Source of the DNA: a virus
Length of the DNA: 24,746 nt
Virus record (IMG/VR): IMGVR_UViG_3300042526_000153
Span: 1 to 24,746 of that record
Reading direction: 5' to 3' (one strand)
Each line of letters begins with the position of its first letter. The stretch's first letter is position 1. Positions 1 to 20,423 of this stretch are shown here, one piece after another. The notes under the pieces are model-generated. The model was not told the origin of the DNA. It did no database searches and saw only the letters and a program-made list of their open reading frames with translations. The position numbers were made by a program, and so were the translations under genes.

Positions 1-484
1 CAACATCTCTCGCTGCTAAACGGGTTGACTTCTCCCACTTATCCGATATGTAATATTCCGAGCAATCGTTGTTAGTCCTTACCTTTGCAAAGGGGATGTG
101 GGTAATGTATTTTAATCTGCCTACACGGTCAAAGATAAACTTCCAATAAAACCCACCAAATACTTCCAAGTCCATTACCGACTTATACTGCACATCCTCT
201 GCGGTTTCGTATGGATTAACCAAATCTAAATAGGCATTAACACTATCAGCGTTAACACTATCTTTTTTAGCATCTATACCTTTGCCAGTAATGTATTGTA
301 CCTTGCCTGTTATAATAGCGTTATGCTTTGCCGAACCATTAAGCAAGGCAACAAGGTAATCGGGATAGGTGTTACCCTCTCCAAACAATACCCAGGGCTT
401 TGTGCTATCGTGGTTTTTTACCTCCTTAAATACAGGGGGCGCACTATTTATCAGCTTTACTACTATTAAATTATTATCCTCCAT
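1..484 (-). CDS. Portal protein (3' end cut by window edge)
   Basis: Likely forms the dodecameric portal ring at one capsid vertex, through which DNA is packaged and to which the tail attaches. The frame opens with ATG at 484 and stays open to base 1, giving about 161 N-terminal residues; the rest lies outside the window. Seen: an N-terminal stretch reading PWVLFGEGNTYPDYL followed by LLNGSAKHNAIITGKVQYITGKG, an arrangement I associate with portal proteins of Bacteroidetes phages (inference from memory, no search run). The start overlaps the previous stop by 11 bp, so the two are probably translationally coupled. It is the most distal virion gene in the transcript, downstream of the capsid gene, whereas portal usually comes before protease and capsid. 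Confidence 0.7.
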   Translation of the reverse strand, partial: MEDNNLIVVKLINSAPPVFKEVKNHDSTKPWVLFGEGNTYPDYLVALLNGSAKHNAIITGKVQYITGKGIDAKKDSVNADSVNAYLDLVNPYETAEDVQYKSVMDLEVFGGFYWKFIFDRVGRLKYITHIPFAKVRTNNDCSEYYISDKWEKSTRLAARDV

Positions 485-866
485 AAACCGCAGTTGTTAC
501 TGTTCTTGTGTATTGTGTGTCGCTGGTTGCCGTTCCTATTACTTTTACCATTCCGCTTTCAACTATTGTCTTTCCTGTTGGGCTTAGGTTGGTAGCACTT
601 GCTTGTTCGTATACATTGTAAGTCCACTCGCCTGTTGTTGCTAATGTTACTTGCCCGGCTATCGGGTTAGGTGTTGCAGTTTCTGTTATCGTAAACTGAT
701 TAAACCTATCTAAATATTGGCTTAGGTCTACAGGCTGTATGCAATACTTCTTTTCTCCGCTTGCTTTGCTTATCCATTCCCATAAGTAGTAAGCGTTGGC
801 AATAGTTGTCTTCTCTTTTAGAGTTACCGTAACTATGTTGCTTTGCCCTTTATTTATAACTACCAT
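474..866 (-). CDS. Small virion-associated protein, function unknown
   Basis: A 130-residue beta-rich, Thr/Val-rich soluble protein with no signal peptide or membrane segment. I recognise the pattern (N-terminal INKGQSNIVTVTL, then AYYLWEW and RFNQFTITET, then a WTYNVYEQ strand) as a conserved small protein of Bacteroidetes phage structural clusters, but its role is not known to me; a neck, tail-completion or baseplate part is possible. I chose the ATG at 866. The longer frame starting at 917 would run backwards through a terminator hairpin and a promoter, so its extra 17 residues are rejected. A TGGCAC-type promoter ends exactly at this ATG. The 3' end overlaps the portal start by 11 bp. Confidence 0.7.
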   Translation of the reverse strand: MVVINKGQSNIVTVTLKEKTTIANAYYLWEWISKASGEKKYCIQPVDLSQYLDRFNQFTITETATPNPIAGQVTLATTGEWTYNVYEQASATNLSPTGKTIVESGMVKVIGTATSDTQYTRTVTTAVYGG

Positions 867-870
867 ACTT

Positions 871-899
871 ATAATACCATAAAATTTAATTTTGTGCCA
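871..899 (-). promoter_or_regulatory. Putative phage late promoter A (TGGCAC-N17-TATTAT)
   Basis: On the minus strand, TGGCAC lies at 899-894, then 15 nt, GG, and TATTAT at 876-871. The ATG at 866 follows TGGCAC after exactly 27 nt. The same arrangement occurs upstream of the scaffold, protease and tail-chaperone genes. The first T of TGGCAC is also the last T of the preceding terminator tract. A transcript starting about 7 nt after TATTAT would have almost no leader (inference). Confidence 0.6.
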
Positions 900-927
900 A
901 AAAAAAGCCCCGCACATTGGCGAGGCT
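899..927 (-). terminator. Rho-independent terminator after the tail-tube-like gene
   Basis: Read on the minus strand this is an 8-bp stem, AGCCTCGC paired with GCGGGGCT (one U-G wobble), with a 6-nt loop and a run of eight T. It starts 22 nt downstream of the 949-1452 gene stop. It is the strongest intrinsic terminator in the window and separates the capsid/tube genes from the portal operon, which restarts at the adjacent TGGCAC promoter. Confidence 0.85.
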
Positions 928-948
928 CTTCTTAACCGCTACAAACAC

Positions 949-1452
949 TTATGAAATCAAACTGCTTTCTGTACCAGTATACTCAAACCAATCGTTAGGC
1001 TCGTTACCGTCAAACACTACGGTGTAACCGTTAAGGTCTCCCATCGCTGTTCCTGTAACTGCTGTTGAGGTTGTAACCATTAAACCTTTTTGTTTGCCGC
1101 AAATCCATAGTTTACCGTTGTTATCTTTTACGATAATAACTAACCTGTTTTTAGCTAAGGCAACAATCTTGTCGCGGGTTTGGTAGGTTAACTTTTGGAA
1201 GATAGCCGACACTTGTTGTGCAAAAAAAACCGTTCCGTTAGGGCGGCTGCCTGTTAGCACACTTTGAGCCATTGAGTTTTCCTCCTCAAGTTCATATTTG
1301 TAGAACACGCCCGACTTAGTAATAGCCGATACTGTTCCACTTGCTTCTGTATAGCCTGTAACATTAGCGGTAGTGTTAATGTAGAGGGTTTGTATACCCC
1401 CTACACTATCACGACAATCTAATGCAAAGCCCTGGGTTATAGCGCAAGGCAT
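949..1452 (-). CDS. Probable major tail (tube) protein
   Basis: A 167-residue beta-rich protein. Features seen: an N-terminus with MPCAITQGFALDCRDSVGG, a central VIIVKDNNGKLWICG hairpin, and a C-terminal GDLNGYTVVFDGNEP. This NGYT-hydrophobic-GxEP ending is typical of tail-tube subunits, and the whole pattern is common next to capsid genes in Bacteroidetes phages. The tail-tube call is inference from these motifs and from being an abundant-type gene placed just before a strong terminator; another head-tail structural role is possible. It starts 3 bp after the capsid gene stop and is probably expressed with it. Confidence 0.55.
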   Translation of the reverse strand: MPCAITQGFALDCRDSVGGIQTLYINTTANVTGYTEASGTVSAITKSGVFYKYELEEENSMAQSVLTGSRPNGTVFFAQQVSAIFQKLTYQTRDKIVALAKNRLVIIVKDNNGKLWICGKQKGLMVTTSTAVTGTAMGDLNGYTVVFDGNEPNDWFEYTGTESSLIS

Positions 1453-1455
1453 AGG

Positions 1456-2373
1456 TTAAGAGTTTGTATATTCAACAATACGATTACCAAAGTAGTACTG
1501 AACACCAATTTTGGTTTCAGCTACAAAGCGAACTTTACGGGCCTCACGAGCGTAAAACAACTCAATGTTTTCTTCTTCGTTTAGCAAGTCAGTACCAAGT
1601 ACAAAGTTACCGTTTTCACCAAACTCACCTGCGATGATACGATTAGTTCCGTTTAAACCCGGTACGCCAATAAGTGTGTACATAGAGTTTTCAACTTTCA
1701 TTTCGTAACCTACTGCATCACCAAAGTAATGGTAAAGGTTATCGGCAGCAAGTTTGTTTTGGTAAATTTCAAAGGTATCATAACCGCACATAAACTTTAC
1801 ATTATCACGACCTTTTACGTCAATAGGTATTTTCGTAATCATGTCCTGTAAAATAGTACGAATGTTGGTAGTATTGATTGTTGATGGAGTTGCAGAAACA
1901 ACCGTGTTATCAGCATCAATAATTTTTAATAGTCCGTCAAACTTGTTAAGGTAAACGTTAGCCGAGTTAGTATCACCTTGCCAAATAGCAACCTCTTTAC
2001 GTTTCTCAATGTTTTGCATAGTATCATCAACGATGTACTTTTCAAAATCATCTAAGCCCATAGGAGAACCAGGCTTCAAACCTTTTTGTGTCCATTTAGC
2101 CTCAAGGTCTTTAGGACACCAATCAAGGTAAACGCCAATCTTACCTACTGTTAGGGTGCGTTGAGAGAATGTAGTATCGCCCGATGCAGTAAAACCACAC
2201 GCTTGGGTTTGCCATACGCCCTCTGTAGCAATAATGTTTAGTTTCTCGGCAGACTTGATGCCTACCTGTGAGGCTAATAAGCCTGCTGTTTTACCCGAAA
2301 ATACTAAAGCGTATTTAAGGGTATCCATTTCTTCCTTGGTATAATTACCAATGTTGTCAAATACAAATGCCAT
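1456..2373 (-). CDS. Major capsid protein (HK97-fold)
   Basis: A 305-residue protein expected to form the icosahedral shell. Support: it sits directly after a scaffold-like gene and an XkdF-type protease; the length is normal for a compact HK97-fold capsid protein; the C-terminal part reads EARKVRFVAETKIGVQYYFG, the closing strand pattern (R-V/K-R-F-x-A-x-x-K-x-G-V-Q) seen in many Bacteroidetes capsid proteins. A mid-protein segment, NVKFMCGYDTFEIYQNK, is like the P-domain helix/strand of this fold. The leader before the ATG (2374-2398) is almost pure A/T with an A-rich run, as in highly translated Bacteroidetes genes. No separate promoter was found here, so it probably depends on the sites upstream of scaffold and protease. 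Confidence 0.8.
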   Translation of the reverse strand: MAFVFDNIGNYTKEEMDTLKYALVFSGKTAGLLASQVGIKSAEKLNIIATEGVWQTQACGFTASGDTTFSQRTLTVGKIGVYLDWCPKDLEAKWTQKGLKPGSPMGLDDFEKYIVDDTMQNIEKRKEVAIWQGDTNSANVYLNKFDGLLKIIDADNTVVSATPSTINTTNIRTILQDMITKIPIDVKGRDNVKFMCGYDTFEIYQNKLAADNLYHYFGDAVGYEMKVENSMYTLIGVPGLNGTNRIIAGEFGENGNFVLGTDLLNEEENIELFYAREARKVRFVAETKIGVQYYFGNRIVEYTNS

Positions 2374-2398
2374 TTTCTTTTATTTTTAGTTTTTTAAA

Positions 2399-2968
2399 TT
2401 ACTTTTTGTTTGCTGCAAACTTTTGTGCTGCGGCTTGCATACGCTCTATGGCAGTTGCTTTCTCGCTTTGTATTTGTTTGCTAAATGATGTTTTGGTTGG
2501 TTTGTCAGCCGGTGCTGATGGGTCTTCAGCTAATTTTTCAATAACAGCAAACATATCTTTGATAAGTGCTGATTGTGCTGCTAACTCTGTTTTAAGGTCT
2601 TTAACCTCATTTTTGTTAATGCTAGCTAAGGCTGTTTGAATGGCAGCTTCTACGTCTTCCATTTTAACGGGTTGGCTTGCCTCAACCTCAACCTCAACTA
2701 CAGGCTCGCTTTCAGGTACTTTAATGTCGGTAACAAAACCACCCTCGGTAGTTACTAATGTACCGTCTTCTAATTCGTGGGTTGCATTTTCAGCAGGCTG
2801 TATTCCACCACCTGCATCAATAACATTTAGCTTAGTGCCAACGTTAAGTTCGCCCTCGTATTGCACGATTGTACCGTCTTTTAGCTTTGCCTCCATAAAC
2901 TTATGTTCAGCGTTTAGCTTTAATTTAATGCGTTCAATAACGCTTTTGATGTCTTGTGTTAAACTCAT
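2399..2968 (-). CDS. Capsid scaffolding protein (putative)
   Basis: A 189-residue acidic, low-complexity and largely helical protein placed between protease and major capsid genes, the classic position for a scaffold that is degraded during maturation. Residues about 20-90 form a beta-like, biotinyl/barrel-like segment (KLKDGTIVQYEGELNVGTKL...TTEGGFVTDI), followed by an acidic linker rich in Glu/Val/Pro, then a helical coiled-coil region (about 105-145) and a basic, Ala-rich C-terminus ending in KKFAANKK-like sequence (exactly AAAQKFAANKK), which could bind the capsid protein. The ATG at 2968 has a 36-nt A/T-rich interval from an upstream TGGCAC promoter. Function is inferred from context and composition. 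Confidence 0.65.
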   Translation of the reverse strand: MSLTQDIKSVIERIKLKLNAEHKFMEAKLKDGTIVQYEGELNVGTKLNVIDAGGGIQPAENATHELEDGTLVTTEGGFVTDIKVPESEPVVEVEVEASQPVKMEDVEAAIQTALASINKNEVKDLKTELAAQSALIKDMFAVIEKLAEDPSAPADKPTKTSFSKQIQSEKATAIERMQAAAQKFAANKK

Positions 2969-2981
2969 TGCTTTTTTATTA

Positions 2982-3010
2982 TTAAAACCATTAAAATTAA
3001 ATGTGTGCCA
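2982..3010 (-). promoter_or_regulatory. Putative phage late promoter B (TGGCAC-N17-TTTTAA)
   Basis: TGGCAC at 3010-3005, 15 nt, GG, TTTTAA at 2987-2982, all on the minus strand and internal to the end of the protease gene and the following spacer. The scaffold ATG is at 2968, 36 nt after TGGCAC. Box sequence and spacing match sites A, C and D. The TGGCAC also encodes Met-Ala-His codons of the protease, so that half alone is weak evidence; the aligned GG and -10-like box add to it. Confidence 0.5.
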
Positions 3011-3581
3011 TTAGGTATTCCAAGTCAGCTAAAGCATCGTGTATCTCTGCTAACTCCTCTTGTGGTACGTCTTCCACTTTAACGTGGTTAAATATTCCCT
3101 CAACGCTAAAGCCTTTCATCTCTCCCGATTTGATTTTCTCCCACACCATATCGTTGTTGACTTTAAAAGAGCCTACCCAACTACCCTCTGGTAAGTCTTG
3201 GAATTGTATTCCCCTGGTCTTGTCAATAATCATACTTTCGTACATAACAACACCGTCTATCAACTCGCCATTGTGTTGAAGATTTACCTTAGACTGATAG
3301 CCCATTTCAAAATAACGCTGCGCTATGGCTTCTATGGTTTGTGCATCAAACTGAACGTAGAACTCACGCCCTCCTATGTTTCGGTAAATAGGCATATCGG
3401 CAACCATTAAAGCCCCTGTTACTATTCGCCTGTCCCCATTTTCGCTAAAGGCAAACTCATAATGTTTAGAGTACGCCATAAAAGAACGTTCTATTGCGGG
3501 ATGGTCAACTATTGCCACCGCATCAACGCCAGTAGTAAAATCAAAGTCATCTATGTGAACTTTGTATAATGGTAATTCCAT
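2997..3581 (-). CDS. XkdF-like prohead serine protease
   Basis: A 194-residue protein resembling the XkdF-type phage serine protease family, which trims scaffold and capsid proteins in the prohead. Seen: the TGALMVADMPIYR entry motif (residues 55-67), REFYVQFDAQTIEAIAQRYF (72-91), then LQHNGEL with His103 and MKGFSVEG with Ser159. By analogy with S78-type prohead proteases, His103 and Ser159 would be the catalytic pair. The C-terminal tail (165-194) is acidic and may tether it to the scaffold. It begins the head module; the gene before it is the tape measure. A TGGCAC promoter sits exactly 27 nt before its ATG. Confidence 0.8.
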   Translation of the reverse strand: MELPLYKVHIDDFDFTTGVDAVAIVDHPAIERSFMAYSKHYEFAFSENGDRRIVTGALMVADMPIYRNIGGREFYVQFDAQTIEAIAQRYFEMGYQSKVNLQHNGELIDGVVMYESMIIDKTRGIQFQDLPEGSWVGSFKVNNDMVWEKIKSGEMKGFSVEGIFNHVKVEDVPQEELAEIHDALADLEYLMAHI

Positions 3582-3585
3582 AATA

Positions 3586-3614
3586 TTAAAACTGTTTTTT
3601 TGTTTATAGTGCCA
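3586..3614 (-). promoter_or_regulatory. Putative phage late promoter C (TGGCAC-N17-TTTTAA)
   Basis: TGGCAC at 3614-3609 starts right after the tape-measure stop codon. It is followed by 15 nt, AG, then TTTTAA at 3591-3586, and the protease ATG at 3581 comes 27 nt after TGGCAC. Unlike site B it is fully intergenic, so coding constraint does not explain it. It would drive the head module. Confidence 0.6.
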
Positions 3615-5384
3615 TTAGATTGTTATAAGGGCTTTCTTTTTGTTTTGCTGAACGCCCATTTGACTGTTGGTAATATCGCTTTCCACAACGTACACCTTAA
3701 AGTTTTCGCCCTCTTGTATTAAACCGCTTGTGTTAGATGGGGGTTGTATGCTTGGGGGTGTTATACCTCCCGCTGTTGGTAGGGTTAAACTTCCACCACC
3801 GCCACCTACTTGGTTTATTGCAGGTTCTTGTAATGCTTTTTTTGCCGATGCCATTGCGGCTAATACAGATGCTATGCCGCTTGTTATATAAGCCACTTGT
3901 AAAAATGGTGCTGCTGGACCACCGGCTGCTGCCGCTTGTGTTGCCCCTGCAATAGTAGATGCAATAGAACGTGCTGTATCAATAGCTATTTGCGCTATAG
4001 CTAATGTTTTTTGAAAAGCTGTATTTTTCTTTCCGTTGCCTGATAGTAATTCACCTAAAGCGGTTAGCCCATTTAGTGTGTTTTGGGCTATCATAAACTT
4101 AGCATCTTGTATATCTTTAGCATCTTGTATCTGTTGCTTTTTAGATATTTCGCTAACATCTGCCGCCTCTTGTGCTGCTAACCTTTGTTGTTCAATTAGC
4201 TTTTGATTAAATTCTTTATTTTCATCAAGTTCTTTTTTCCTTAGTTCGGCATTTTTTAGTCCTTTTTCATTCTCAATTTTATCTAACTCGTGTACTAATT
4301 TTAATCTACTTTCAATTGAAGATTTATCTTCGGCATCTTTTTCTTTAGCGTTTTTTCTTCTTTCTTCTAAGTCTTTTTTTGCTCTTTCTATTCCCTTATC
4401 AATATAGTATTGGTCTATCTCATCTTGTTTGGCTAATGATAATTTACGTTGCTCACGAACAAACTTTTCAAAATTAGATTGGTCTTCTTGATTTTTAAAC
4501 ATTTGTGTGCCAAATTTATCTGTATATTCAGTATAATCTATTGCACCTTTAAGTCGCAGGTCTATTATTTCTTTTTCTTTTTTTAGTATTTCATCTTGCG
4601 GCTTGTGTTGTAATCTCATAAGCCTTAATTGATTTTCTAATATTTTAACATTTCCTGATAGTTTTCCACCCTCTTCCGCTATTCTTCTTAAATTATTAGA
4701 ACGGTCTGTGTTAAAATCAGCCATTTCCTTATTTAGTTTTGCCTGTTTTTCGGCGGCATCATTAGCACTATTGGCATAGTCCATTAGTTTAGATATGGCT
4801 GCACCTAACCCAACTACCAATAAGCCTATGCCTGTGCTTGCTATTGCTGCTTTTAAGCCATTAAAAGACAATCCCGTAGCTGCTACCGCACTTGAAAATG
4901 TTTTTTGTATAACGGTAGCTGCGGCTGTTACAAGGTTATTAGCTTGCTGAAATATAGTAGTAGTCTTAATTGCTTGGCTAATATTTACCCATTGCTTTTG
5001 CGCTTCAACCAATGATTGTACACCCATAGCTAACGCACTTGCCGACTGAACTTTTAGCAATAGCTTTTCTACGTCTTCCGATTTCTCGCCTAACAAACCG
5101 TATAATCCCGTGATAGTTTGAAATCCACCCGCAACCGTATTAATTAAATTACCAAAGGCTGCAGCCTTTTCCCCTGGGTTTAATGTATTAATCGATTCGT
5201 TAACATCTTTCAATTGGTCTGCTAACCCTGCGGCTTTCTGTAGGGCTTGGAAATACTCCTCCGTTCCCTCTTTAGCTTGCAGGGCTGCTTCTTTGGCTTC
5301 CCTTAGTTGCTGCTTTACGGTTTTTATCTTAGCCTCGCTATCGCCAGAACCCTCAACCTTTACTTTTAAAACTACCTCTTCCAT
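3615..5384 (-). CDS. Tail tape measure protein
   Basis: 589 residues; sets tail length and is thought to pass through the tube with the DNA. Order of parts: helical N-terminus rich in Lys/Glu/Gln (1-65); a hydrophobic, Ala/Gly-rich stretch at about 150-205 (GIGLLVVGLGAAI); a long charged coiled coil at about 205-425; a second Ala-rich hydrophobic block at about 455-515; a Gly/Pro-rich linker; and a C-terminus with YVVESDITNSQ, which I know from Bacteroidetes tape measures. At about 1.5 angstrom per residue (the usual rule) the tail would be near 90 nm (inference). The first ATG overlaps the previous stop by 1 bp. Unusually, it lies downstream of the tail-tip genes and directly before the head genes. 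Confidence 0.85.
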   Translation of the reverse strand: MEEVVLKVKVEGSGDSEAKIKTVKQQLREAKEAALQAKEGTEEYFQALQKAAGLADQLKDVNESINTLNPGEKAAAFGNLINTVAGGFQTITGLYGLLGEKSEDVEKLLLKVQSASALAMGVQSLVEAQKQWVNISQAIKTTTIFQQANNLVTAAATVIQKTFSSAVAATGLSFNGLKAAIASTGIGLLVVGLGAAISKLMDYANSANDAAEKQAKLNKEMADFNTDRSNNLRRIAEEGGKLSGNVKILENQLRLMRLQHKPQDEILKKEKEIIDLRLKGAIDYTEYTDKFGTQMFKNQEDQSNFEKFVREQRKLSLAKQDEIDQYYIDKGIERAKKDLEERRKNAKEKDAEDKSSIESRLKLVHELDKIENEKGLKNAELRKKELDENKEFNQKLIEQQRLAAQEAADVSEISKKQQIQDAKDIQDAKFMIAQNTLNGLTALGELLSGNGKKNTAFQKTLAIAQIAIDTARSIASTIAGATQAAAAGGPAAPFLQVAYITSGIASVLAAMASAKKALQEPAINQVGGGGGSLTLPTAGGITPPSIQPPSNTSGLIQEGENFKVYVVESDITNSQMGVQQNKKKALITI

Positions 5385-8311
5385 TAGTATACGTTTACTT
5401 CTAATTGGTTAACAGCAGAACCTGCCTTTCTAAATATTATGTAATCTTCTTGTGTGCCATCTAACAGCGCAAATGTTGACGGGCTTGGGGTGTTGATATT
5501 TACCCCTGCACTAAATCTTAAATCGGTTATACTACCACTTTTTTTAAACCTAAAGTCTACCTCCGGTGGTGATAATATTTCTTGTATGTCGTAGCTTGTA
5601 CTTGCCCCCGCTAATAAAAACCTACTTTGCAGGGTATACTCTGCTGGTATGGTTAATGTATTAGAACTAAAAATACTTGCATCGTCTAAGTCTAATGTTA
5701 CCTCTCCCCTTAAATCTATAACGCTTGGGTTTTTAAGAAATAGCCCCGATTGTGTTATTGTTTGGTTGTATAGATTTAATGCCGTAACATCACCTACTCC
5801 AAACTGAACGGTTACGCCTGATGAGTTTAGTAGTGTTACGTTTTCATTATTACCCTCCAGTACATTGCTATCACCAAATACAACAACACCGCTACTGTTA
5901 GCATACACCGTGTTATTCTCCCCCTCTATCATTATACGCATACAGTTGGCGTGTACGCTATTGCCATCACCGTTTACTACTAACTGAACGGAACTTGCAT
6001 CTAAAAAACCGCCCTGCCCAAATCGTATAATCTTACCCGGTAACACCTCGCCTGTTAATGGCTTTCCATCAACTACAAAGCCCGGCTTAACCATTCCACC
6101 AATGCTGCTACCAATGCCACCAATAATTGTTTCTTTGGTTACTTGAAAACTTTGCCCGTCTTTAATCTTTAAAAACTCGCACTTGGTAAGTTGGTTGCTT
6201 AGTGGGTTGTAATCCTCTATCTTTTGCAGACGTAGGTAGTACCCCTTAATAACATATATTTTGCGGAATGATAAAAACTCCACGTCTTCGGGTGTTAGCC
6301 TTAGATAGCAAGTAACTAACTTACTATTGCTATCGGATAACTCCTCTATCATATCCTTGTAGAACTTATTGTATAGGCTGTTGCTTGTATACTCTAAGTT
6401 AGGAGGTGCTATGTATGCGTTATATCCGTAAAATAACTCGTTAGGGTTACCCCAATTTAACTCTACGTCAGGGCTGTATGGGTTATCTAAATGCCCTGCA
6501 TAAGGGTATTTGTTTAATATGTTGGCAACACTTGTAGGAACGTTTGAGGTAACTATGTAGCTTGGTGTACTTGTTAGCAATCCCCCCCAATACAGTATAC
6601 GTATGTTAGTTGCCTTACGTTGTATCGTGTTGTTTTGCTCATCAAACTGATAGATATGCGGAATGATACGGTTAGATTGTGTGTTGCCTACTAATGGAGT
6701 AGGGCTAAATATAACATCAATCTTAGATTGGTTTTTGCTAAAGTCGTTATCTATAAACTTTTCAAACTTACCGTATACCTCATCGTTGTTTTTTTGGTAC
6801 TTTTCATTATAGTAGTCTTTATCCTCTTTGTAAGTAAACAAAAACGACTTACTATCCAGTTCACCCATAGGGGTAATAACCATATCTTGGCTCTCATCTA
6901 ACTTATCAGTCCAGTCTAAAGTTCTGTTAGCACCTGCTTGATAATACTGATAGCGTGGCTCTACTAATATGTTCTTAGGGTTGTCGGGGTCTACTTCTAT
7001 GTAGAGGTTAAACATCCTAATAAACGAAACAAGTATATCCCTTAGCTTGGTATCAGCAGGAGGCAATGCGTTGTTCATTAGCATTGTCATACCCTCTGTA
7101 ATGGTATCGGTTGCTACACCGTTAAAATATAAAGAGGTAGCTAATACTCTTAGTTTAACCTCATCAACTGAGAGAAAACCAACCGTTGAATTAACAACTA
7201 CTACATTTGATGTAATTACTGTTATGCCATTTTTTACAAACTGCATCAAACAGGTTACTCCAATTAATGGGCTGTCTGTAGTTCCCCAAAATAACTTTAT
7301 CCTTACGTCTACATAATCGCCAACAACTAACGCTACATCATTAGCTTGCATTTGGGCTATGTATGTGTTTGAGGTGTTTAGCAATACCCCACTATTATAC
7401 CAAAGGCTTTGTAAGTTAAGTTGGCAGTTTAGTTTGTAGCTACCATTTTCAACAGGAACAAACCTACCTGATGCCGTGTTAAAGTTACCGCCGGTATCAA
7501 AGTTGGGTGCAGTAGTATCGTCATCAAACGGAACTATCTTAGTAGTTGGGTTGTTGATTAGGTTAGGAAACAAATCAGGTGTTTCATAGAACCCTGTTAA
7601 ACTTGCCCTAAATGTCCTATCCTGTACATCGGCATTGGTTAGCCTTAAACCGTTACCGCTATATGGTATGATTAAAGATTTAAAGTAAGTGTCAGTTATA
7701 AAGTCTGACTTATAAGTATACCCCGCCAACTCCATTATCCTATCCCAGTACTCCTTAGCAAAAATAGCGGGTACAAAATCGGTAAGCGTATAAAGGTTGG
7801 TTGCCGTCTGGTCGTAGTTAATCAAAGGGTAAACATAGCCAGTACCTATTGTTGGTGTCCAACTTGCCGAAACATTGGCATAAGTATAGGCATGGTCTAA
7901 GTCGCTAAAGTCTAAAGCTGATACGGTCTTATCCCCTAACTCTTGTATTAACGTTGGGGTGTTGCCTATTATCTGTACATCGTAATCTATAAAGTTGGTA
8001 TCTTTTAAGTATACCCTTAGCAACTGCAAATCTCCCCTGAATACAGAAACGTCATCAATCAGTAGTTCAACCTCGCTTTTAAGTGCTGGGTTAAACGTGC
8101 CGTCAATATCAATCTCAAATATATCGGTAAAAAGTTCGTTGTTTAACTTGGTACCTGGGATGCGTATTGTCTTAGAATAGTTACCCTCCCTTGTTTCGGG
8201 TTTGCGTATATCAGATATTGAATAGTTTAACGATACAGGAACGTCATCTAATAAGTCTAACTGCGCCCACTCGCTTAGGTGGTTTGGCTTTATAAATATC
8301 TTAGTAACCAT
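5384..8311 (-). CDS. Large tail-tip protein with beta-helix-like repeats
   Basis: 975 residues, the largest gene here. The N-terminus (LDLLDDVPVSLNYSISDI, then REGNYSKTIRIPGT) is the entry motif of a tail/baseplate protein common in Bacteroidetes phages and prophages. Residues about 1-700 probably form the hub-like part. Residues about 770-835 hold short G-D/E-x-N-x-V repeats (GDGNSV, GENNTV, GDSNVL, GNNENV, each followed by a strand), as in a right-handed beta-helix. A C-terminal beta domain of about 140 residues follows. A receptor-binding or host-contact role for the repeat and C-terminal parts is inference. It overlaps both neighbours by 1 bp, so it is co-translated with the 409-residue protein. 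Confidence 0.7.
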   Translation of the reverse strand: MVTKIFIKPNHLSEWAQLDLLDDVPVSLNYSISDIRKPETREGNYSKTIRIPGTKLNNELFTDIFEIDIDGTFNPALKSEVELLIDDVSVFRGDLQLLRVYLKDTNFIDYDVQIIGNTPTLIQELGDKTVSALDFSDLDHAYTYANVSASWTPTIGTGYVYPLINYDQTATNLYTLTDFVPAIFAKEYWDRIMELAGYTYKSDFITDTYFKSLIIPYSGNGLRLTNADVQDRTFRASLTGFYETPDLFPNLINNPTTKIVPFDDDTTAPNFDTGGNFNTASGRFVPVENGSYKLNCQLNLQSLWYNSGVLLNTSNTYIAQMQANDVALVVGDYVDVRIKLFWGTTDSPLIGVTCLMQFVKNGITVITSNVVVVNSTVGFLSVDEVKLRVLATSLYFNGVATDTITEGMTMLMNNALPPADTKLRDILVSFIRMFNLYIEVDPDNPKNILVEPRYQYYQAGANRTLDWTDKLDESQDMVITPMGELDSKSFLFTYKEDKDYYNEKYQKNNDEVYGKFEKFIDNDFSKNQSKIDVIFSPTPLVGNTQSNRIIPHIYQFDEQNNTIQRKATNIRILYWGGLLTSTPSYIVTSNVPTSVANILNKYPYAGHLDNPYSPDVELNWGNPNELFYGYNAYIAPPNLEYTSNSLYNKFYKDMIEELSDSNSKLVTCYLRLTPEDVEFLSFRKIYVIKGYYLRLQKIEDYNPLSNQLTKCEFLKIKDGQSFQVTKETIIGGIGSSIGGMVKPGFVVDGKPLTGEVLPGKIIRFGQGGFLDASSVQLVVNGDGNSVHANCMRIMIEGENNTVYANSSGVVVFGDSNVLEGNNENVTLLNSSGVTVQFGVGDVTALNLYNQTITQSGLFLKNPSVIDLRGEVTLDLDDASIFSSNTLTIPAEYTLQSRFLLAGASTSYDIQEILSPPEVDFRFKKSGSITDLRFSAGVNINTPSPSTFALLDGTQEDYIIFRKAGSAVNQLEVNVY

Positions 8312-9540
8312 TAGTAGCGTTGCATTTGGTTGGTGTAGCTTGTTTCAAAAGTAACCGTTAGGTTAAAGGTCATATCTGTTAATGCTTTCTTAGCTATGTA
8401 GCTTACATCGGTTATGTTAATGGCTATAAGGTTGCCGTCTTTCTCCCAAAAGATTATAGGGCTGCTTAGTAGTTCCCTTAGCCATTCGCTCTCATAGTCA
8501 TCAATCCAATCGCTGTTTATTTGGTAGGCTGTTTTAACTTCTGTTTGATACTGGGTTGTTAGCCTATCGGATATGGTGTAGCCAAATGATGAGCCTGTCA
8601 ACTCTCCTTTCGGCTTCTTGTAATTATACTTGCTAATTGTGTCGGTCATCTGCGAGCCTTTAATAAAACTAAAGCTATCAAACCCGCCCAACCTATTAAG
8701 AAAGTGTAGCCGGTACTTGGTATGGTCTGAACAATTAGATACTATGTTATACGTTTTAGTTACCGAACTTCCACCATTGGGTATAGCTGTATCTAAAGTG
8801 CGTATTGTATAGCGTGTTATGTTGCTATCTATTATCGGTTGGCTGCCACTATTTAGACTTCCACCAGGTATAATGTTAAGGCTTGCGGGGGCTGATGGCA
8901 TCCGTAAAAAACAATCTCCGCTACTTGCGGGTGCGCTGTACGGGTTGTTAACTAAAACGGTTTGCACTAAGGTATTGCCATTGTAGGTCTTAACCTCCGC
9001 TTGGCTAAACGTTTGCCCGTTCGGGTTTTGTATCATATACAACCACCCTTTCTCATCAATGCTTACGTTCTGTTCCGATGGGCTGTTAGTTAGAAACGTG
9101 CTACCACTTGAACCTAACAAACAAGTACCACTTGAGTAGGTTACAAACTGCTCAAAGTTTATAGCTGCGTTCCAAGTAAGTATAATATTGCTTTGGGCTA
9201 AATTAGCGTAAACGGTAGGTGTTGCACCGTATTCCTCCCCTATCCTTATAATGTACCCTTTCCAACTGTTAACGTTGGGTGTAACCTCATCAGTAGCTAA
9301 GTCAATGTCATCGGTTAAGTAGTTTTCAATTATCCTATGCACGTCAATAACCAACTTGTTAGTGCTGCCAGGATAGATGTTTCTTTTTATCCTACGGGTA
9401 TAGGTTACATCACCCAAAAACACAATGTCAACCACAAACTTAAAGTTAGCTTGCGACTGATTGGTAGTGCTTGCCACAAACCAATTCTCATTGTAAGCGG
9501 GGGTAAACTTTTGCGGTTCTTGTAATATAGTTATTGCCAT
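8311..9540 (-). CDS. Tail structural protein (distal tail/baseplate-like)
   Basis: 409 residues, rich in beta-strand-like segments, with no signal peptide. Recognisable landmarks are the opening TILQEPQKFTPAYNENWFV, the RIIENYLTDD segment after about 70 residues, HFLNRLGGFDSFSF at about 280-293, and the closing SSPIIFWEKDGNLIAINITD. This pattern occurs in Bacteroidetes phage tail-tip proteins encoded directly next to the large repeat protein. The tail-tip location is inferred from the neighbour and the motif memory; it could be the distal tail protein or part of the baseplate hub. TAATG overlaps of 1 bp at both ends show tight coupling. Confidence 0.6.
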   Translation of the reverse strand: MAITILQEPQKFTPAYNENWFVASTTNQSQANFKFVVDIVFLGDVTYTRRIKRNIYPGSTNKLVIDVHRIIENYLTDDIDLATDEVTPNVNSWKGYIIRIGEEYGATPTVYANLAQSNIILTWNAAINFEQFVTYSSGTCLLGSSGSTFLTNSPSEQNVSIDEKGWLYMIQNPNGQTFSQAEVKTYNGNTLVQTVLVNNPYSAPASSGDCFLRMPSAPASLNIIPGGSLNSGSQPIIDSNITRYTIRTLDTAIPNGGSSVTKTYNIVSNCSDHTKYRLHFLNRLGGFDSFSFIKGSQMTDTISKYNYKKPKGELTGSSFGYTISDRLTTQYQTEVKTAYQINSDWIDDYESEWLRELLSSPIIFWEKDGNLIAINITDVSYIAKKALTDMTFNLTVTFETSYTNQMQRY

Positions 9541-10115
9541 TAGTCTCTTATTTCAAAAATTACTTGTTGCCCTAAAACTTTCTCGGCTCTCCTTACTAAC
9601 TGGGTAAATGCCTTTGGGTTTACTACATCAGTATAAAAGTTGCTTGCCTCTATACCGTGTTGTTGGATAGAACGTGCCATTAAAAATGCTGCTGTATCTA
9701 AAGGGTTATTAGGTGTTTTTCTTATCCCCGCCCTTAGACTTCTTTTTTTATCAGAGTACCCTTGTATGCTTATACCCTTGTTCATTATGTACTTCTTTAG
9801 GGCTGATACTGGAGGCATCTTGTTTGTAAACTTGTACGGGCTGCCTATTCCTTTCAACCGCTTCTTACCTTTCCCGTTACCCTGCACCCCTTTGTCTACA
9901 TACTTCCAATAGTCCTCCATTGAAATGCTAACCTCGTTTTCGCCAATGGTTAGGCTGATGCTTTGCCTTAATACGCTACTTGCGTTTTTGTTTTTCTCAT
10001 CTAAGTTCTTTTGCATCTCATCAATAAGAAGTTGAGCAAAGCCCGCCAATAGTGCCTCCATTGACTGCTCTACGCTTTGTTTCTTATCAATGCCTATGTT
10101 ATTTAAGTTTAGCAT
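9540..10115 (-). CDS. HK97 gp10-like head-tail/tail-completion protein
   Basis: 191 residues. N-terminal helix (1-45) followed by a strand pair SISLTIGENEVSISMEDYWKYVDKGVQ, then a basic Gly-rich segment (GKGKKRLKG), a Pro-rich turn and a C-terminal helix after VNPKAF. The Y-x-x-Y-V-D-x-G-V core is typical of the HK97 gp10-like family, which sits at or near the tail terminator/neck. The family call is moderate since overall similarity cannot be tested here. Its ATG at 10115 overlaps by 17 bp the end of the frameshifted chaperone product, which supports that -1 frame being real coding sequence. Confidence 0.55.
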   Translation of the reverse strand: MLNLNNIGIDKKQSVEQSMEALLAGFAQLLIDEMQKNLDEKNKNASSVLRQSISLTIGENEVSISMEDYWKYVDKGVQGNGKGKKRLKGIGSPYKFTNKMPPVSALKKYIMNKGISIQGYSDKKRSLRAGIRKTPNNPLDTAAFLMARSIQQHGIEASNFYTDVVNPKAFTQLVRRAEKVLGQQVIFEIRD

Positions 10116-10883
10116 TTTTCATCATTAGGTTGCGTATTCTTTCCTTGTCCTTGTAGTATGCCAACATATTTAAAAATTCTACCACGTTTAGTTCCGTGAA
10201 AAAATCCCATTTTTCAGGGCAGTTATTGGAGAGGCTATCCAACGCATTATGCCACCCCCACCGTTCGTTGAACTGACCGACTGCTCCCGCAATAATTTTG
10301 CTGCCACTTTCATCTCCTCCACCGCCTTGTTTATAAAGTAAGTTTCTATATTGGTTGTTAAACCGTTCGTAACTTGATAAAAAAAAAGTGCCGCAGGATA
10401 TGCAACCGAAATAGGCATATACCTATAAAACTCATCGGCTCTTTCCTTGTGGGCTTTACCGTTGTACTTTGAAACCATCAACTTACCATACCAAGTTTTC
10501 TTAGCTGGTAGGTATAGGGTCGCCATTATCTTATGCAGATTGTTGATAGGGTTTTTGATGAACTCGGAAAGGTCAATGTATTGCCCGGCTGTTAGTTCGT
10601 TAATTAGTAGGTTGGCTTGGTATAACTTACCGTTTATCTTTATTTGGTTGACTGCCTTAGCTTCGGGTAGTTCGTTTAAGAACGCAATCTTACCTACCAA
10701 CGCAGCCAATTGGCTTGCTGTTAGTTCTAAGAACACATCCTCACTTTCTCCTGTAAGTAATGATAGCACCTTAATGTTGCGGTCAAGTATTCCCTCTGGG
10801 TCATCGGTATGTTCTAACTTGGCTATCTTAATAAAAGTGCCAATGGTAACATCCTCTAATTTTGTCGGTATTTGCAGTTTCAT
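10099..10883 (-). CDS. Tail assembly chaperone, -1 frameshift fusion product (G/GT-like)
   Basis: Join of the 0 frame (10883 to the T9 tract at 10387-10379) with the -1 frame to the TAA at 10099-10101, giving 261 residues. Residues 1-168 are shared with the short product. The -1 part reads LSSYERFNNQY, GGGGDESGSK, then FNERWGWHNALDSL and KWDFFTELNVVEFLNMLAYYKDK, the W-G-W plus helical ending expected for the T part of a tail chaperone. The -1 frame is open for more than 90 codons, and its first ATG comes only near its end, so it needs a frameshift. Its end meets the next gene in a 17-bp overlap, like its neighbours. Fusion proteins of this kind recruit tape measure and tube subunits during tail assembly (known for lambda). 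Confidence 0.65.
10188..10883 (-). CDS. Tail assembly chaperone, unshifted product
   Basis: 231 residues from the ATG at 10883; an upstream ATG at 10973 would add 30 residues but lies beyond the promoter and inside the opposite-strand gene, so it is rejected. The start reads MKLQIPTKLEDVTIGTFIKI, then KVLSLLTGESEDVF at about 50, NELPEAKAVNQIKINGKLY, and AGQYIDLSEFIKNPINNLHKIMATLY, an alpha-helical tail-chaperone layout I know from Bacteroidetes phages. The 63 residues after the T9 tract occupy the same DNA as the -1 frame. They end in a Gly-rich segment and may be less conserved. Expected ratio: mostly this form, with a few percent fusion (by analogy with lambda G). Confidence 0.65.
   Translation of the reverse strand: MKLQIPTKLEDVTIGTFIKIAKLEHTDDPEGILDRNIKVLSLLTGESEDVFLELTASQLAALVGKIAFLNELPEAKAVNQIKINGKLYQANLLINELTAGQYIDLSEFIKNPINNLHKIMATLYLPAKKTWYGKLMVSKYNGKAHKERADEFYRYMPISVAYPAALFFYQVTNGLTTNIETYFINKAVEEMKVAAKLLREQSVSSTNGGGGIMRWIASPITALKNGIFSRN
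10379..10387 (-). other. T9 slippery tract for -1 frameshifting
   Basis: On the minus strand nine T follow C, read in frame as CTT TTT TTT TAT. This includes T TTT TTT in the correct phase for a -1 slip, which moves ribosomes into TTA TCA AGT. Polymerase slippage on T9 could give the same products. It lies about two thirds of the way into the unshifted chaperone gene, rather than at its very end. Confidence 0.6.
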
Positions 10884-10887
10884 ACAT

Positions 10888-10916
10888 TTAATACCGCTTT
10901 TTTGGTTTTCGTGCCA
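10888..10916 (-). promoter_or_regulatory. Putative phage late promoter D (TGGCAC-N17-TATTAA)
   Basis: TGGCAC at 10916-10911, 15 nt, GG, TATTAA at 10893-10888; the chaperone ATG at 10883 is 27 nt after TGGCAC, as at sites A and C. It lies in the 45-bp divergent spacer and would start the whole tail operon. It abuts the plus-strand TATATTTG box at 10917-10924, so the two promoters probably cannot be occupied together. Confidence 0.6.
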
Positions 10917-13586: not shown

Positions 13587-13840
13587 AGCCGGTGGTAAAT
13601 TATGATTGATAATGTTGCTGCGGTTGCTGCGGTTAGTAATGCTTCTATTGGGTTAACGGTTGTTAGTTGGTAAGCAAGGCAACTCCAAAAGGTTAGGCAC
13701 TTGTTACACTTTAAAGGGTATGGTATTATATATCCAAAAGGTAAGTTATCGTGAAGCCATTGGTTAGCGTGAGCCATTTGCATTGAGACAACTATTCCCA
13801 GGCAAGCAAAGCCAATTATGTTAAATAGTAGTAAGTACAT
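13583..13840 (-). CDS. Small membrane protein with CxxC between two TM segments
   Basis: 85 residues. First hydrophobic segment about 2-23 (LLLFNIIGFACLGIVVSMQM), a short hydrophilic loop, then KCNKCLTFWSCLAY at about 44-57, and a second hydrophobic segment at about 66-82 (ALLTAATAATLSIII). The Cys-x-x-Cys-Leu-x-Phe-Trp motif before a helix recurs in small membrane proteins of Bacteroidetes phages; function unknown. A holin role is conceivable for a two-TM protein but nothing like an endolysin is nearby, so I do not claim it. It overlaps the FkbM-type gene by 20 bp upstream and the next gene by 4 bp. Confidence 0.65.
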   Translation of the reverse strand: MYLLLFNIIGFACLGIVVSMQMAHANQWLHDNLPFGYIIPYPLKCNKCLTFWSCLAYQLTTVNPIEALLTAATAATLSIIIYHRL

Positions 13841-14390
13841 AGTTAAACGCTGTTGTTAATTGTAGCCAATATCCTTTTTTAATTAGCATTGTTACTAATC
13901 GGTGGTCTTGTTTACCAAAGGTACAGTATTCTGCAATAATAGTTTTAGGCTTTGGTAGGTCGGTTTTAAAGTATGGCTTTAATACATCGTACTCACTCCC
14001 CTCTAAGTCAATGCTTAACAAGTCTATTTGAGTAACGTTGTTTTCTTTTACAAGTGTTTCCAATGATATACCTGAAACTACTTTAACCCTTTCGTGGTCT
14101 TTGGTAGTTATCTTTCCCGCTTCTCCATTGTAGTCAAAGTAAACCGAACCATCAATTTTGTTTACTGCCTTTTGTATTAGCTTGCACGTTCGGTCTTTGT
14201 AGCTATCCAAGTAAACAGGGTTAGGCTCTACACAAATACCACTCCAACCCATATTGTCTAATATTTTGGTGTTAGAGTTTATAGTTCCATCGGCACTGCC
14301 TAAGTCTATGTAAAAACCATTGTCAGGCAATAACCCCTCAAGGTATAGCCATTCATCTTCTTTGCATTGTGAATTAAAATTGTGTTCCAT
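13821..14390 (-). CDS. FkbM-family methyltransferase
   Basis: 189 residues. SAM-binding motif I is NGFYIDLGSADGTINSNT (about 25-42), followed by GICVEPNP, a typical FkbM motif, and LLSIDLEGSEYDVLKPYF at about 124-141 with the family's I-D-x-E-G motif. FkbM-type enzymes usually O-methylate sugars or polysaccharides. It lies at the end of a cassette with a second methyltransferase and two glycosyltransferases, so the likely substrate is a glycan made by those enzymes (inference). The upstream A/T-rich leader AATTTTAC precedes ATG 14390; its 3' end overlaps the membrane-protein gene. Confidence 0.85.
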   Translation of the reverse strand: MEHNFNSQCKEDEWLYLEGLLPDNGFYIDLGSADGTINSNTKILDNMGWSGICVEPNPVYLDSYKDRTCKLIQKAVNKIDGSVYFDYNGEAGKITTKDHERVKVVSGISLETLVKENNVTQIDLLSIDLEGSEYDVLKPYFKTDLPKPKTIIAEYCTFGKQDHRLVTMLIKKGYWLQLTTAFNYVLTTI

Positions 14391-14400
14391 TGTAAAATTC

Positions 14401-14955
14401 TTATTTTATTTTTAGTATTACCGTAAATCCGTTGCCTACTTTATCATCAGGGTCTTGTGTTTCTATTACCTCAACATAGTATGTCATTCTGTTTATAAAA
14501 TCTAAAAATGAATTAAGTGTCCAAATGTTATGATGTTTATCTGGGTACTCTTTTAGGTTATCCCTTTCAAATATATTATCCGCTATTGTTTCTACGTTAT
14601 CTTTATCAAACGTTCTTTCTTTATGCGGTACTATTAGAAAAATGTATTTAGTTGCCACCCTACACCATTCTATTATTGCAAGGTCGGGTCGGTAAATATG
14701 TTCTATAACGTGCGAATTAATTACAAAATCAAATGACTTATCTTTAAATGGTAATTTTATTGCATCTTCACAAATAATATCTACCGTAGCAAAACTATTA
14801 CAACATTCTTTTTGTTCGTTAATATAAAACTCATATCCATCTTTATCTACGTTTAGAGTATTAAGGTTAAAAGGGTTATGTGCCGCACCCCCTATCTCAA
14901 TGCCTGAAAGCCCATCAAGGTACTTGTGTGCTAATTCGCTATCTTTAAATACCAT
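14401..14955 (-). CDS. Class I SAM-dependent methyltransferase
   Basis: 184 residues. Motif I is LSGIEIGGAAHNPFNL (about 15-30); DAIKLPFKDKSFDFVINSHVIEHI (about 64-87) is the standard motif II to III region of a Methyltransf_11-like fold, with the conserved H-x-x-E-H. The C-terminus (WTLNSFLDFINRM, then a beta strand pair) is short. Substrate unknown; the neighbours suggest a sugar or a glycan-linked compound. It is 10 bp from the FkbM-type gene and 3 bp from the glycosyltransferase. The middle of this gene appears more A/T-rich than its neighbours by eye, which may hint at separate origin, though I could not measure it. Confidence 0.85.
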   Translation of the reverse strand: MVFKDSELAHKYLDGLSGIEIGGAAHNPFNLNTLNVDKDGYEFYINEQKECCNSFATVDIICEDAIKLPFKDKSFDFVINSHVIEHIYRPDLAIIEWCRVATKYIFLIVPHKERTFDKDNVETIADNIFERDNLKEYPDKHHNIWTLNSFLDFINRMTYYVEVIETQDPDDKVGNGFTVILKIK

Positions 14956-14958
14956 AAT

Positions 14959-15660
14959 CTAGTCTCTCCATTCTAATATTGTTTCATCTAAGTGTTTTGC
15001 CTCAACCGACTTATCAACTAAAAGCCTACCAAATCCCATTAGAAAGGCATCGCTGCAATAGTTTGGGTCATCGGGTTGGTTTAAGCCTGTAACCCTATGC
15101 CACCCCCGGCGAAACTTTAGCACCCCAAATACCTCACGCTTAATTAGTACAAACTCAGTGTTTGCACTATCGCATAATATTAAGTCATTTCCAATTTCTT
15201 CTATATCCCCAAATACATAGCTAACGTGCTTGTGTCCGTTCCTACCTTTAACAAATCCACCTACCATTGGCTTATTGTGGCTCATTAGCTTTTTAATGGT
15301 GTTTTGAGGAATAACCATATCGCTATCCACAAACAGGATATACTCAGCACCTACATCTAAGGCACACTCTATTGCATCGTTGCGACCTCTAACAATAGGA
15401 ACTAACCGGGCTTGGTCTTGGTCGTATTCTGGTTTCTTCCACCAGTTGCTCTCATAGTTCCAAAAGTCATAATACAACTTTGGTAAGCGTGGGTAGCTTG
15501 CAGCTATTAAGTCTTTCCAATTATCTTTGTCTTTAGTTTCTATGTTGTAGTAAACTTCATAGTTAGGGTAGTCTAATAGGGCAATACTTTCTAATGGTAT
15601 CATACGGTTATGATACTTCCTATCGCAATGCAGTACGCATACTAATACTTTTGGGTTCAT
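14959..15660 (-). CDS. Glycosyltransferase, GT2/GT-A-like
   Basis: 233 residues. It opens PKVLVCVLHCDRKYHNRM, the first strand of a GT-A fold, and has RGRNDAIECALDVGAEYILFVDSDMVIP (about 90-117), where the D-x-D of VDSDM is the metal/nucleotide-sugar site. A later segment, NTEFVLIKREVF followed by RGWHR, may be the acceptor-side region. Typical length for a soluble single-domain enzyme; no membrane anchor. It transfers a sugar from an activated donor, but neither donor nor acceptor can be read from the sequence. It overlaps the other glycosyltransferase by 4 bp. Confidence 0.85.
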   Translation of the reverse strand: MNPKVLVCVLHCDRKYHNRMIPLESIALLDYPNYEVYYNIETKDKDNWKDLIAASYPRLPKLYYDFWNYESNWWKKPEYDQDQARLVPIVRGRNDAIECALDVGAEYILFVDSDMVIPQNTIKKLMSHNKPMVGGFVKGRNGHKHVSYVFGDIEEIGNDLILCDSANTEFVLIKREVFGVLKFRRGWHRVTGLNQPDDPNYCSDAFLMGFGRLLVDKSVEAKHLDETILEWRD

Positions 15661-16715
15661 AATGATTTTAGCAGTTTATAACGTTTCTCATTAACTTTTG
15701 ATATGTGATACTTTTCTTTTACTTCTTTGCTTAGGTTGTCAGCTATATACTTACCGTAGTCAGGTTCGTTAATCAGCGTACGCATTGCCCTATACCAGTC
15801 TTTGTGGTTGCGATTCTTATCAATAGCAATGCAATTTACACCATTTTTAATTACATCGGTATAGGGTTTAATATCAGATACTATACAAGCCTTACCCATA
15901 AACCCCGCCTCAATCATTTTTAACTCACTCTTGCAATTGTTAAAGGTGTTATCATTAAGCGGAACAATACAGGCTTCTAAATGGTTATACCCTAAAGCAT
16001 AGTTGTAAACATCGGTAGTGTAAACCCTCTCATAATCTTTTCCCCTACCCCTATCGGTAAACACTTGCTCAAATCTTCCGTACTCCGGGCTTTCATCATT
16101 ATATCCAAATAGCTTAACCGTAAACCTACCTTGTAGTTCCCTATCAGCGTGTAGTTGTTTAAACCCATCTTGCATCAGTACAACGTCTTCCCAATGGCAT
16201 ACGCCACCCATATAGCCTATGCGATACTTATCCCCTGGCACATAGTTAGGTTGGAATTGTGGGTATATTTCGGGGTAAATAGCATTTGGCAAAACCTCAA
16301 CATTATGGTTCAGCTTGCTTATCTTTTCGGCTAACTGAACATTGGTAGTCGTAACAAGGTCGGCATACTTGATGCTTTCTATTATCTTTTCGGGTGCTTT
16401 AAATATTCGGTACTGTTCTTTGAGAACGTGGAACGCTGATAAGTTCCAGTAGTCATCAATGTCAATTATTATCTTTACTCCTAATGTTCTTAATTGGTCT
16501 GCTATCAGCTTTATGTTTTTAACATCGTTGTGGTGTTCAAACTCCCTTGAAAAGATTACCGCATTAAATTGCTGCAAAACCTCATTAGGCATCCCGTTAA
16601 TAGTGTTGCACCGGGCATACTCTATGTCGGTTGTTTGGGTTAAATGCTGAAAAGGCATTTCCAACCGATAATAGTTGCTCCCTGATTTGTTTTGCTCTAC
16701 TCCTAAAATTTTCAT
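15657..16715 (-). CDS. Glycosyltransferase, GT4/GT-B-like
   Basis: 352 residues with a two-domain GT-B layout. N-terminal domain: KILGVEQNKSGSNYYRLEMP at the start, IIIDIDDYW at about 88-96, and VEVLPNAIYPEIY at about 140, the usual pre-linker Pro-Asn-Ala motif. C-terminal domain: YRIGYMGGVCHWED at about 165-178, and a donor-binding segment with SELKMIEAGFMGKACIVSDI (about 264-283), equivalent to the E-x(7)-E/G region of GT4 enzymes. Retaining-type sugar transfer is likely; acceptor unknown. Its start overlaps the small TM gene by 4 bp, so the cassette is transcribed together with the sigma-like gene. Confidence 0.85.
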   Translation of the reverse strand: MKILGVEQNKSGSNYYRLEMPFQHLTQTTDIEYARCNTINGMPNEVLQQFNAVIFSREFEHHNDVKNIKLIADQLRTLGVKIIIDIDDYWNLSAFHVLKEQYRIFKAPEKIIESIKYADLVTTTNVQLAEKISKLNHNVEVLPNAIYPEIYPQFQPNYVPGDKYRIGYMGGVCHWEDVVLMQDGFKQLHADRELQGRFTVKLFGYNDESPEYGRFEQVFTDRGRGKDYERVYTTDVYNYALGYNHLEACIVPLNDNTFNNCKSELKMIEAGFMGKACIVSDIKPYTDVIKNGVNCIAIDKNRNHKDWYRAMRTLINEPDYGKYIADNLSKEVKEKYHISKVNEKRYKLLKSL

Positions 16716-19969: not shown

Positions 19970-20134
19970 TTACTTGGTTTTAAATAGTTTGTGTTTCTCG
20001 GTTAAGTCCCTTACAGCAACAGCTAATACGTTACTGGCTGTTCCGTGTAGCCCTATTTCTTTAAACTTGGCTTGCAGTAGCTTTATCTGCTTTAAGGTTA
20101 TTTCTTCAAATCGGTGTGTCTTTGGTCGTGCCAT
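19970..20134 (-). CDS. 54-residue possible ribbon-helix-helix protein
   Basis: ATG at 20134 shares a base with the previous stop (TAATG), TAA at 19970-19972. The product starts with a basic strand-like segment (ARPKTHRFEEITL), then two helices around KQIKLLQAKFKEIG and ASNVLAVAVRDLTEKH. That strand-helix-helix order is what an RHH/CopG-like DNA-binding protein would show, so a small transcriptional regulator is possible (inference; weak). It is the second gene after the host-type promoter at 20393-20423. Confidence 0.6.
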   Translation of the reverse strand: MARPKTHRFEEITLKQIKLLQAKFKEIGLHGTASNVLAVAVRDLTEKHKLFKTK

Positions 20135-20373
20135 TATTGTTTTTTTATGTTACCATTACTTAATGCTACTTGACACAAATGTTCAACGGCTTCTATTATT
20201 CCAATTCCTGTACACCAATCCGATATTTCGCCTCTCATATTATCTACTATCCACCATTGTAACCTTGATGCGCCCTCTCCGTCTTGGTCGTTCATATATC
20301 CGTTAAAAATATCGTCAGGTATCTGCCCGTTGACAAATAACCCAAAAGCCTCTCTAAATATTTTATCTTTCAT
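20134..20373 (-). CDS. 79-residue early protein, unknown
   Basis: Soluble, acidic and Trp-rich, with FGLFVNGQIPDDIFNGYMND (about 10-29), SRLQWWIVDNMRGEISDW (about 36-53) and IIEAVEHLCQVAL. I do not recognise it. It is the first gene after the best host-type promoter of the window, with a leader of about 20 nt, so it should be among the earliest transcribed genes of this block, together with the possible RHH protein it is fused to by TAATG. Confidence 0.6.
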   Translation of the reverse strand: MKDKIFREAFGLFVNGQIPDDIFNGYMNDQDGEGASRLQWWIVDNMRGEISDWCTGIGIIEAVEHLCQVALSNGNIKKQ

Positions 20374-20392: not shown

Positions 20393-20423
20393 CAAATGTA
20401 CTCCGAAATATTACACCTCCAAA
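20393..20423 (-). promoter_or_regulatory. Bacteroidetes housekeeping-type promoter (TTTG-N19-TACATTTG)
   Basis: TTTG at 20423-20420, 19 nt, then TACATTTG at 20400-20393, on the minus strand. This matches the TTTG-N19-TAnnTTTG consensus of Bacteroidetes sigma-ABfr promoters without mismatch. Transcription would start about 20387, 14 nt before the ATG at 20373. It probably drives the 16.7-20.4 kb accessory block before phage factors are made. Confidence 0.75.

Follow-up and report, generated by a model that had tools for sequence, protein, structure and literature searches.

The window, i.e., the whole stretch of 24,746 nucleotides that was analyzed, is about 94% coding and carries on its minus strand four sites that match TGGCAC-N15-RGTWTTAW with zero mismatches (Table 1). 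All four had been reported at these positions by a first-pass annotation, with the ATG beginning 27 nt after TGGCAC at sites 1, 3, and 4 and 36 nt after it at site 2, and positions as well as distances were recovered exactly; the second box is better read as an element of 8 nt, RGTWTTAW. The start codons of the four downstream genes are credible because distant homologs begin at the same residue. Of the gene labels in that annotation, the protease (Pfam) and the portal (PHROG 11226) were borne out, while the "tail chaperone" name for the gene behind site 4 is unproven and "scaffold" was read from gene order alone. The terminase genes are without the motif. The first bases of site 2 encode the C-terminal Met-Ala-His-Ile and the stop codon of the protease, and this overlap places promoter and protein under joint constraint. 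The hairpin that precedes site 1 was not listed by a consensus scan.

Table 1 Coordinates of the sites, genes, and other features in the window
Feature	Coordinates	Strand	Remarks
Putative late promoter, site 1	871..899	-	TGGCAC-N15-GGTATTAT; ATG at 866, gap 4 nt; kept in relatives
Putative late promoter, site 2	2982..3010	-	TGGCAC-N15-GGTTTTAA; ATG at 2968, gap 13 nt; overlaps 3' end of protease gene; kept in relatives
Putative late promoter, site 3	3586..3614	-	TGGCAC-N15-AGTTTTAA; protease ATG at 3581, gap 4 nt; kept in relatives
Putative late promoter, site 4	10888..10916	-	TGGCAC-N15-GGTATTAA; ATG at 10883, gap 4 nt; kept in relatives
Predicted transcription starts, A of ATG	866 (site 1), 3581, 10883	-	from geometry only
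Intrinsic terminator hairpin	900..933	-	T-run abuts TGGCAC of site 1; fold -19.2 kcal/mol, z -3.28
Small gene ahead of portal gene, putatively driven by site 1	474..866	-	order conserved in relatives
Major capsid gene	1456-2373		after scaffold gene; PHROG, weak Pfam
Probable scaffold protein, putatively driven by site 2	2399..2968	-	placed between protease and capsid
Head maturation protease, putatively driven by site 3	2997..3581	-	Pfam Peptidase_S78_2, 2.4e-14
Gene putatively driven by site 4	10188..10883	-	after large terminase; PHROG 32199 (unknown function); homologs begin at same residue
Probable phage ECF-like sigma factor, 154 aa	16825..17289	-	region 2, residues 1-80; region 4, residues 96-154; variable segment 67-92

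Specificity of the two-box pattern

In the window, TGGCAC-N17-TWTTAW was observed four times against 0.05 expected, with a maximum of one match in any of 1,000 first-order Markov sequences. At box spacings from 10 to 21 other than 17 the window held no match, and spacings of 8, 9, 22, and 23 gave one match each. The signal resides in the full two-box pattern: TGGCAC alone is mildly enriched in the window (20 vs. 11.5), and the pattern relaxed to three mismatches is at best weakly enriched there (28 vs. 20 ± 4.3, a count reached by 4 of 100 shuffles). One further site-like match, at 5431-5459, was rejected, as it falls within the coding sequence of the upstream gene, whose Asp-Gly-Thr codons give rise to TGGCAC; at the equivalent position, distant relatives keep GATGGCAC without a second box.

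The first-pass annotation had proposed a scan of related genomes in which matches inside genes would be weighed against those at gene starts. Relatives' contigs were collected with the sigma-like, terminase, protease, and capsid proteins as queries (one scan matched 534 terminase relatives), and the motif was searched on both strands of all fetched DNA (2.96 Mb, partly redundant). All 25 distinct matches of TGGCAC-N17-TWTTAW were located at the four orthologous late-gene starts, 4 nt from the ATG in 20 cases and 13 nt in five, and equally good matches inside genes did not occur. One relative (L075) has AGGCAC in place of TGGCAC. A permutation of upstream similarity gave P values from 0 to 0.02 for eight genomes and was not significant for G028; the one on the cultured phage P12024L took in only two recognized homologs. 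Megablast of the window against phage records returned no match.

Promoters of the sigma-54 type have TGGCAC, 5 nt, and then TTGCW. No TTGC follows after N4-N6 of TGGCAC at any of the four sites, which agrees with the first-pass annotation, and neither do the four 8-mers (GGTATTAA, AGTTTTAA, GGTTTTAA, GGTATTAT) fit the Bacteroidetes host consensus TAnnTTTG, the second class that it had set aside. Counted from the A of the ATG as +1, the four sites have the same layout as the sigmaA promoter of Bacteroidetes (TAnnTTTG / TTTG; PMC7366714, PMC9723704), with one box spanning -12 to -5 and a second element farther upstream around -33, but its letters are not matched by RGTWTTAW and TGGCAC. Site 1 also agrees with the sigma-70 consensus at 10 of 12 positions when written as TTGGCA-18-TATTAT, an assignment that was rejected since Bacteroidetes promoters are without the classical sigma-70 boxes (PMC7366714).

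Divergence among relatives and a candidate phage sigma factor

Relative to the window, the G013 contig is 92–97% identical over the 250 bases that flank the sites in each direction, its two boxes keep 11–12 of 12 positions, and its 15-nt spacer keeps 7–12 of 15, while the dinucleotide before TWTTAW is altered at all four sites, from GG/AG to CA/TA (RG to YA). In G009, by contrast, the flanks are just 64–88% identical, yet this dinucleotide is unchanged at every site. The YA type was also found in L155 and L162. A concerted change at four places within near-identical flanks is not easily ascribed to drift on the basis of these alignments. The first and last 869 bases of the G013 contig (L059/L060) overlap at 95% identity and include a second copy of site 2, one copy being of the RG type and the other of the YA type; the contig ends thus seem to come from different strains with two versions of site 2, and the overlap is probably a mixture of strains.

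A candidate reader of the sites is encoded upstream of the terminase genes (Table 1). Its protein scored 13.7 bits against Pfam Sigma70_r4_2 (cut-off 25.7), had no region 2 match in Pfam, and matched a PHROG sigma factor family at 6e-5. Its AlphaFold model is moderately confident (pLDDT 72.5) and consists of two helical domains with a disordered linker. The first 23 Foldseek matches of this model in the PDB were sigma factors, nearly all of the ECF type; residues 1-80 align to region 2 of E. coli sigmaE bound to the -10 strand (4lup; 76 residues, 3.2 Å), and region 4 was aligned to 2h27 and 2o8x. VIA-align gave Z values of up to 8.0, a range that is also reached by common helical arrangements. 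In a PDB sequence search with the sigma profile, artefactual TAL effector repeats swamped the output and sigma entries appeared at E values of 0.09 and 0.4. ECF sigma factors are composed of sigma2 and sigma4 joined by a linker, with no sigma3, and the modeled protein is predicted to have this two-domain layout; as its scores lie below the Pfam cut-offs, we label it "ECF-like" and not a proven ECF member. The predicted fold is shared with bacterial ECF sigma factors (sigmaE, SigW, SigH, AlgU), from which the window protein differs by very low sequence similarity and by having no anti-sigma partner identified for it; the -10 letters found here also depart from the CGT box that ECF promoters are reported to have in Flavobacterium (PMC9723704).

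In about 40 distant relatives, an HMM built from near homologs placed the sigma gene approximately 4–6 kb ahead of terL. A model of the family detected it in all nine contigs that a later search returned at a length of about 30 kb or above and, in a Bacteroidetes metagenome-assembled genome, on a contig that also has terL. Overall, the gene lies upstream of the large terminase in almost every long contig of the family. In one clade (L245, L247-L249, L251; G043-G047) the sigma frame is longer, with 234–273 aa and a C-terminal extension of about 60 residues.

The sigma proteins of the window, G006, and G009, all with RG promoters, have the segment NEGSEWL in common within residues 67-92. At the same residues, the G013 protein, with YA promoters, has IEWKLRHR and is identical to the window at 7 of 26 positions, and residues 93-154 are identical at 62 of 62. 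The -35 box, predicted to be read by domain 4, is unchanged along with that domain, and the -10 box, predicted to be read by this part of domain 2, is altered along with the replaced segment. In metagenomes 3300010885 and 3300009159, contigs with the IEWK segment are accompanied by YA-type late contigs (L155, L165), which is co-occurrence only; the contigs with an L018-type sigma factor carried no late genes. As read from these sequences, the matched change of sigma factor and -10 box amounts to about one evolutionary transition, and one contig (G013) carries both.

In far relatives, no TGGCAC-N17-TATTAW was found, which led to a search for clade-specific motifs at the same genes (protease, scaffold, pre-portal). 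These clades keep the geometry of a hexamer, N15, an octamer, and usually 4–5 nt before the ATG, with other letters. For instance, G027 and L207 have TGGCAM-N15-NTATYTAY (6 of 6 distinct matches at starts), L211 and others have TGACAC-N15-ATATTTAT (20/20), G029 has NGCCAA-N15-AWTTAWRW (7/9), and L229 and L233 have TGGTAA-N15-CTATTTAW, in register at the pre-portal gene only (9/9). Since the sites had been inspected before these patterns were drawn up, their informative part is the absence of off-target matches. Two groups designated far-1 have CTACTTTTA or TACTATTC near the ATG and no clear -35; for them, the pattern TACYTTTWNNNNATG was not useful. The G027 sigma factor is 24% identical to that of the window. 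In the alignment, the TGGCAM clade has SIHN as its recognition helix, against SIYN or SVYN for the TGACAC clade, a difference that is suggestive only.

The cultured Nonlabens phages P12024S and P12024L (NC_018271, NC_018272) resemble the window phage in their homologous protease, capsid, portal, and tail genes, in a sigma gene shortly upstream of terL, and in a late motif 4 nt before the ATG. They differ in the letters of the motif (AAAACA/CGTTAWTA) and in a sigma factor too diverged for the family HMM. In P12024L, gp35, just upstream of terL, is annotated as Sigma-70 region 2 and lies above the Pfam cut-off for it; profile comparison with the window sigma family returned a probability of only 45%. 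In six P12024L genes, including the protease, pre-portal, and tail genes, the ATG is preceded at a distance of exactly 4 nt by CGTTAATA or CGTTATTA (CGTTAWTA), and no promoter is annotated in the P12024 record. Like the distant clades, P12024L thus retains the promoter geometry with letters of its own.

Readings of the sites and relation to known systems

The sequence evidence makes it very likely that the four sites are late promoters of a Bacteroidetes tailed phage. The first-pass annotation had already read them as a phage late promoter, and the lack of equally good in-gene matches, together with boxes that are kept while the spacers diverge, supports it. Judging from sequence and model, the phage sigma factor likely reads these sites. 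Expressed earlier, a phage ECF-type sigma factor would bind the host core RNA polymerase, with TGGCAC (about -33 to -28) being read by its domain 4 and RGTWTTAW (about -12 to -5) by its domain 2. Transcription would begin at or beside the A of the ATG, which would leave the late mRNAs almost without a leader (approximately 9 nt for the scaffold mRNA), and sigma factor and promoters would diverge together, so that exchange of the -10-reading segment would go with a change at all four promoters. Binding, late timing, and start site are what we infer for this system. As a whole, the combination of late promoters, a phage ECF-type reader, a start at the ATG, and co-divergence is in our judgment a probable explanation.

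The position of the start was derived from Flavobacterium psychrophilum, whose sigmaA box occupies positions -12 to -5 (PMC9723704). With RGTWTTAW set at these positions, +1 coincides with the A of the ATG at three of the four sites, which predicts leaderless mRNAs, and is 9 nt upstream of the ATG at the scaffold gene. By this analogy, leaderless late mRNAs are likely; leaderless messages make up approximately 5.5% in F. psychrophilum (PMC9723704), and 5' UTRs shorter than 10 nt approximately 3.7% in B. thetaiotaomicron (PMC7366714).

The sites could also be promoters that are read by a host alternative (ECF) sigma factor, or by sigmaA with an activator, the phage protein doing something else. 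Bacteroidetes have many ECF sigma factors (PMC7366714, PMC9723704), and the geometry of the sites is that of host promoters. However, the box letters differ among phage clades of the same geometry, change along with the phage sigma segment, and are not TAnnTTTG, a box that relatives do have on other genes, and we regard a host reader as unlikely. Even less probable, in our estimate, is an RNA-level or other DNA-binding element that is no promoter (translation control, mRNA processing, a repressor site): it would suit the placement of every site just before a start codon and of two sites that abut or overlap the 3' end of the preceding gene, but not the fixed, promoter-type spacing of the two boxes, the scaffold site that keeps both boxes with its ATG 9 nt further away, or the location of site 1 directly after a terminator hairpin, where a new promoter would be expected. 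Four coincidental matches in AT-rich intergenic DNA can be dismissed almost entirely, for although the motif was picked after reading the sequence and its relaxed form is only weakly enriched, the excess over the Markov expectation, the out-of-sample conservation with no off-target match, and the independent clades speak against chance.

Assuming a phage sigma factor that reads late promoters, the system is of a known kind. Phages phiEco32 and 7-11 encode a sigma factor that goes with middle and late promoters specific to the phage (PMC4331800), and they likewise have a motif that recurs ahead of structural genes and is not accounted for by the host consensus, with host-type promoters on other genes. 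A phage-specific motif ahead of structural genes and near-absent elsewhere, the mark of a phiEco32-type system, is what the scan revealed (25/25). Those phages infect Enterobacteriaceae and use a 9-nt tAATGTAtA element (PMC4331800), whereas here the hosts are Bacteroidetes, the element consists of two boxes at a constant distance, the promoters end 4 nt ahead of the ATG, and sigma factor and promoter have diverged in a matched way over many relatives. What is new is the phylum of the hosts, the position of the promoters at the AUG, and modular co-divergence among related phages. In the open-access literature searched, there was no relevant report on late promoters of Bacteroidetes phages or on a phage ECF sigma factor, which does not prove absence.

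More tentatively, and with less than even confidence, we propose a large family of Bacteroidetes phages with a modular, fast-evolving pair of sigma factor and late promoter, in which recombination would swap the -10-reading segment, all late promoters would follow in concert, and late mRNAs would start at the AUG. If true, this would provide natural, mutually specific sigma-promoter pairs and may insulate late expression between co-infecting relatives. Apart from this proposal, the system would define by sequence a late transcription program for abundant uncultured Bacteroidetes phages and would offer a natural set of sigma-promoter pairs in which -10 reader and -10 box have changed to match. 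It also predicts leaderless virion-gene messages, an unusual choice in Bacteroidetes, a phylum without Shine-Dalgarno initiation. The cultured phages P12024S and P12024L allow a direct test of the system.

Relatives of the window phage carry TAnnTTTG on other genes, often also 4 nt before the ATG. In L124 (G028; upstream of 11259) and in the minus-strand genes of G022, a host-type box, TAAATTTG, takes the place of the phage motif at the post-terminase gene, 4 nt ahead of the ATG, so that control of this gene seems to have been switched in that clade. Between the sigma gene and the small terminase, the window holds two methyltransferase-like and two glycosyltransferase-like genes by eye (13821-16715, minus strand), which vary between relatives such as G004 and look like exchangeable cargo. 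A host-type sigmaA box with TTTGG upstream, TACATTTG, lies at 20393-20400 on the minus strand ahead of the gene at 20134-20373 and is, by its sequence, a candidate early promoter.
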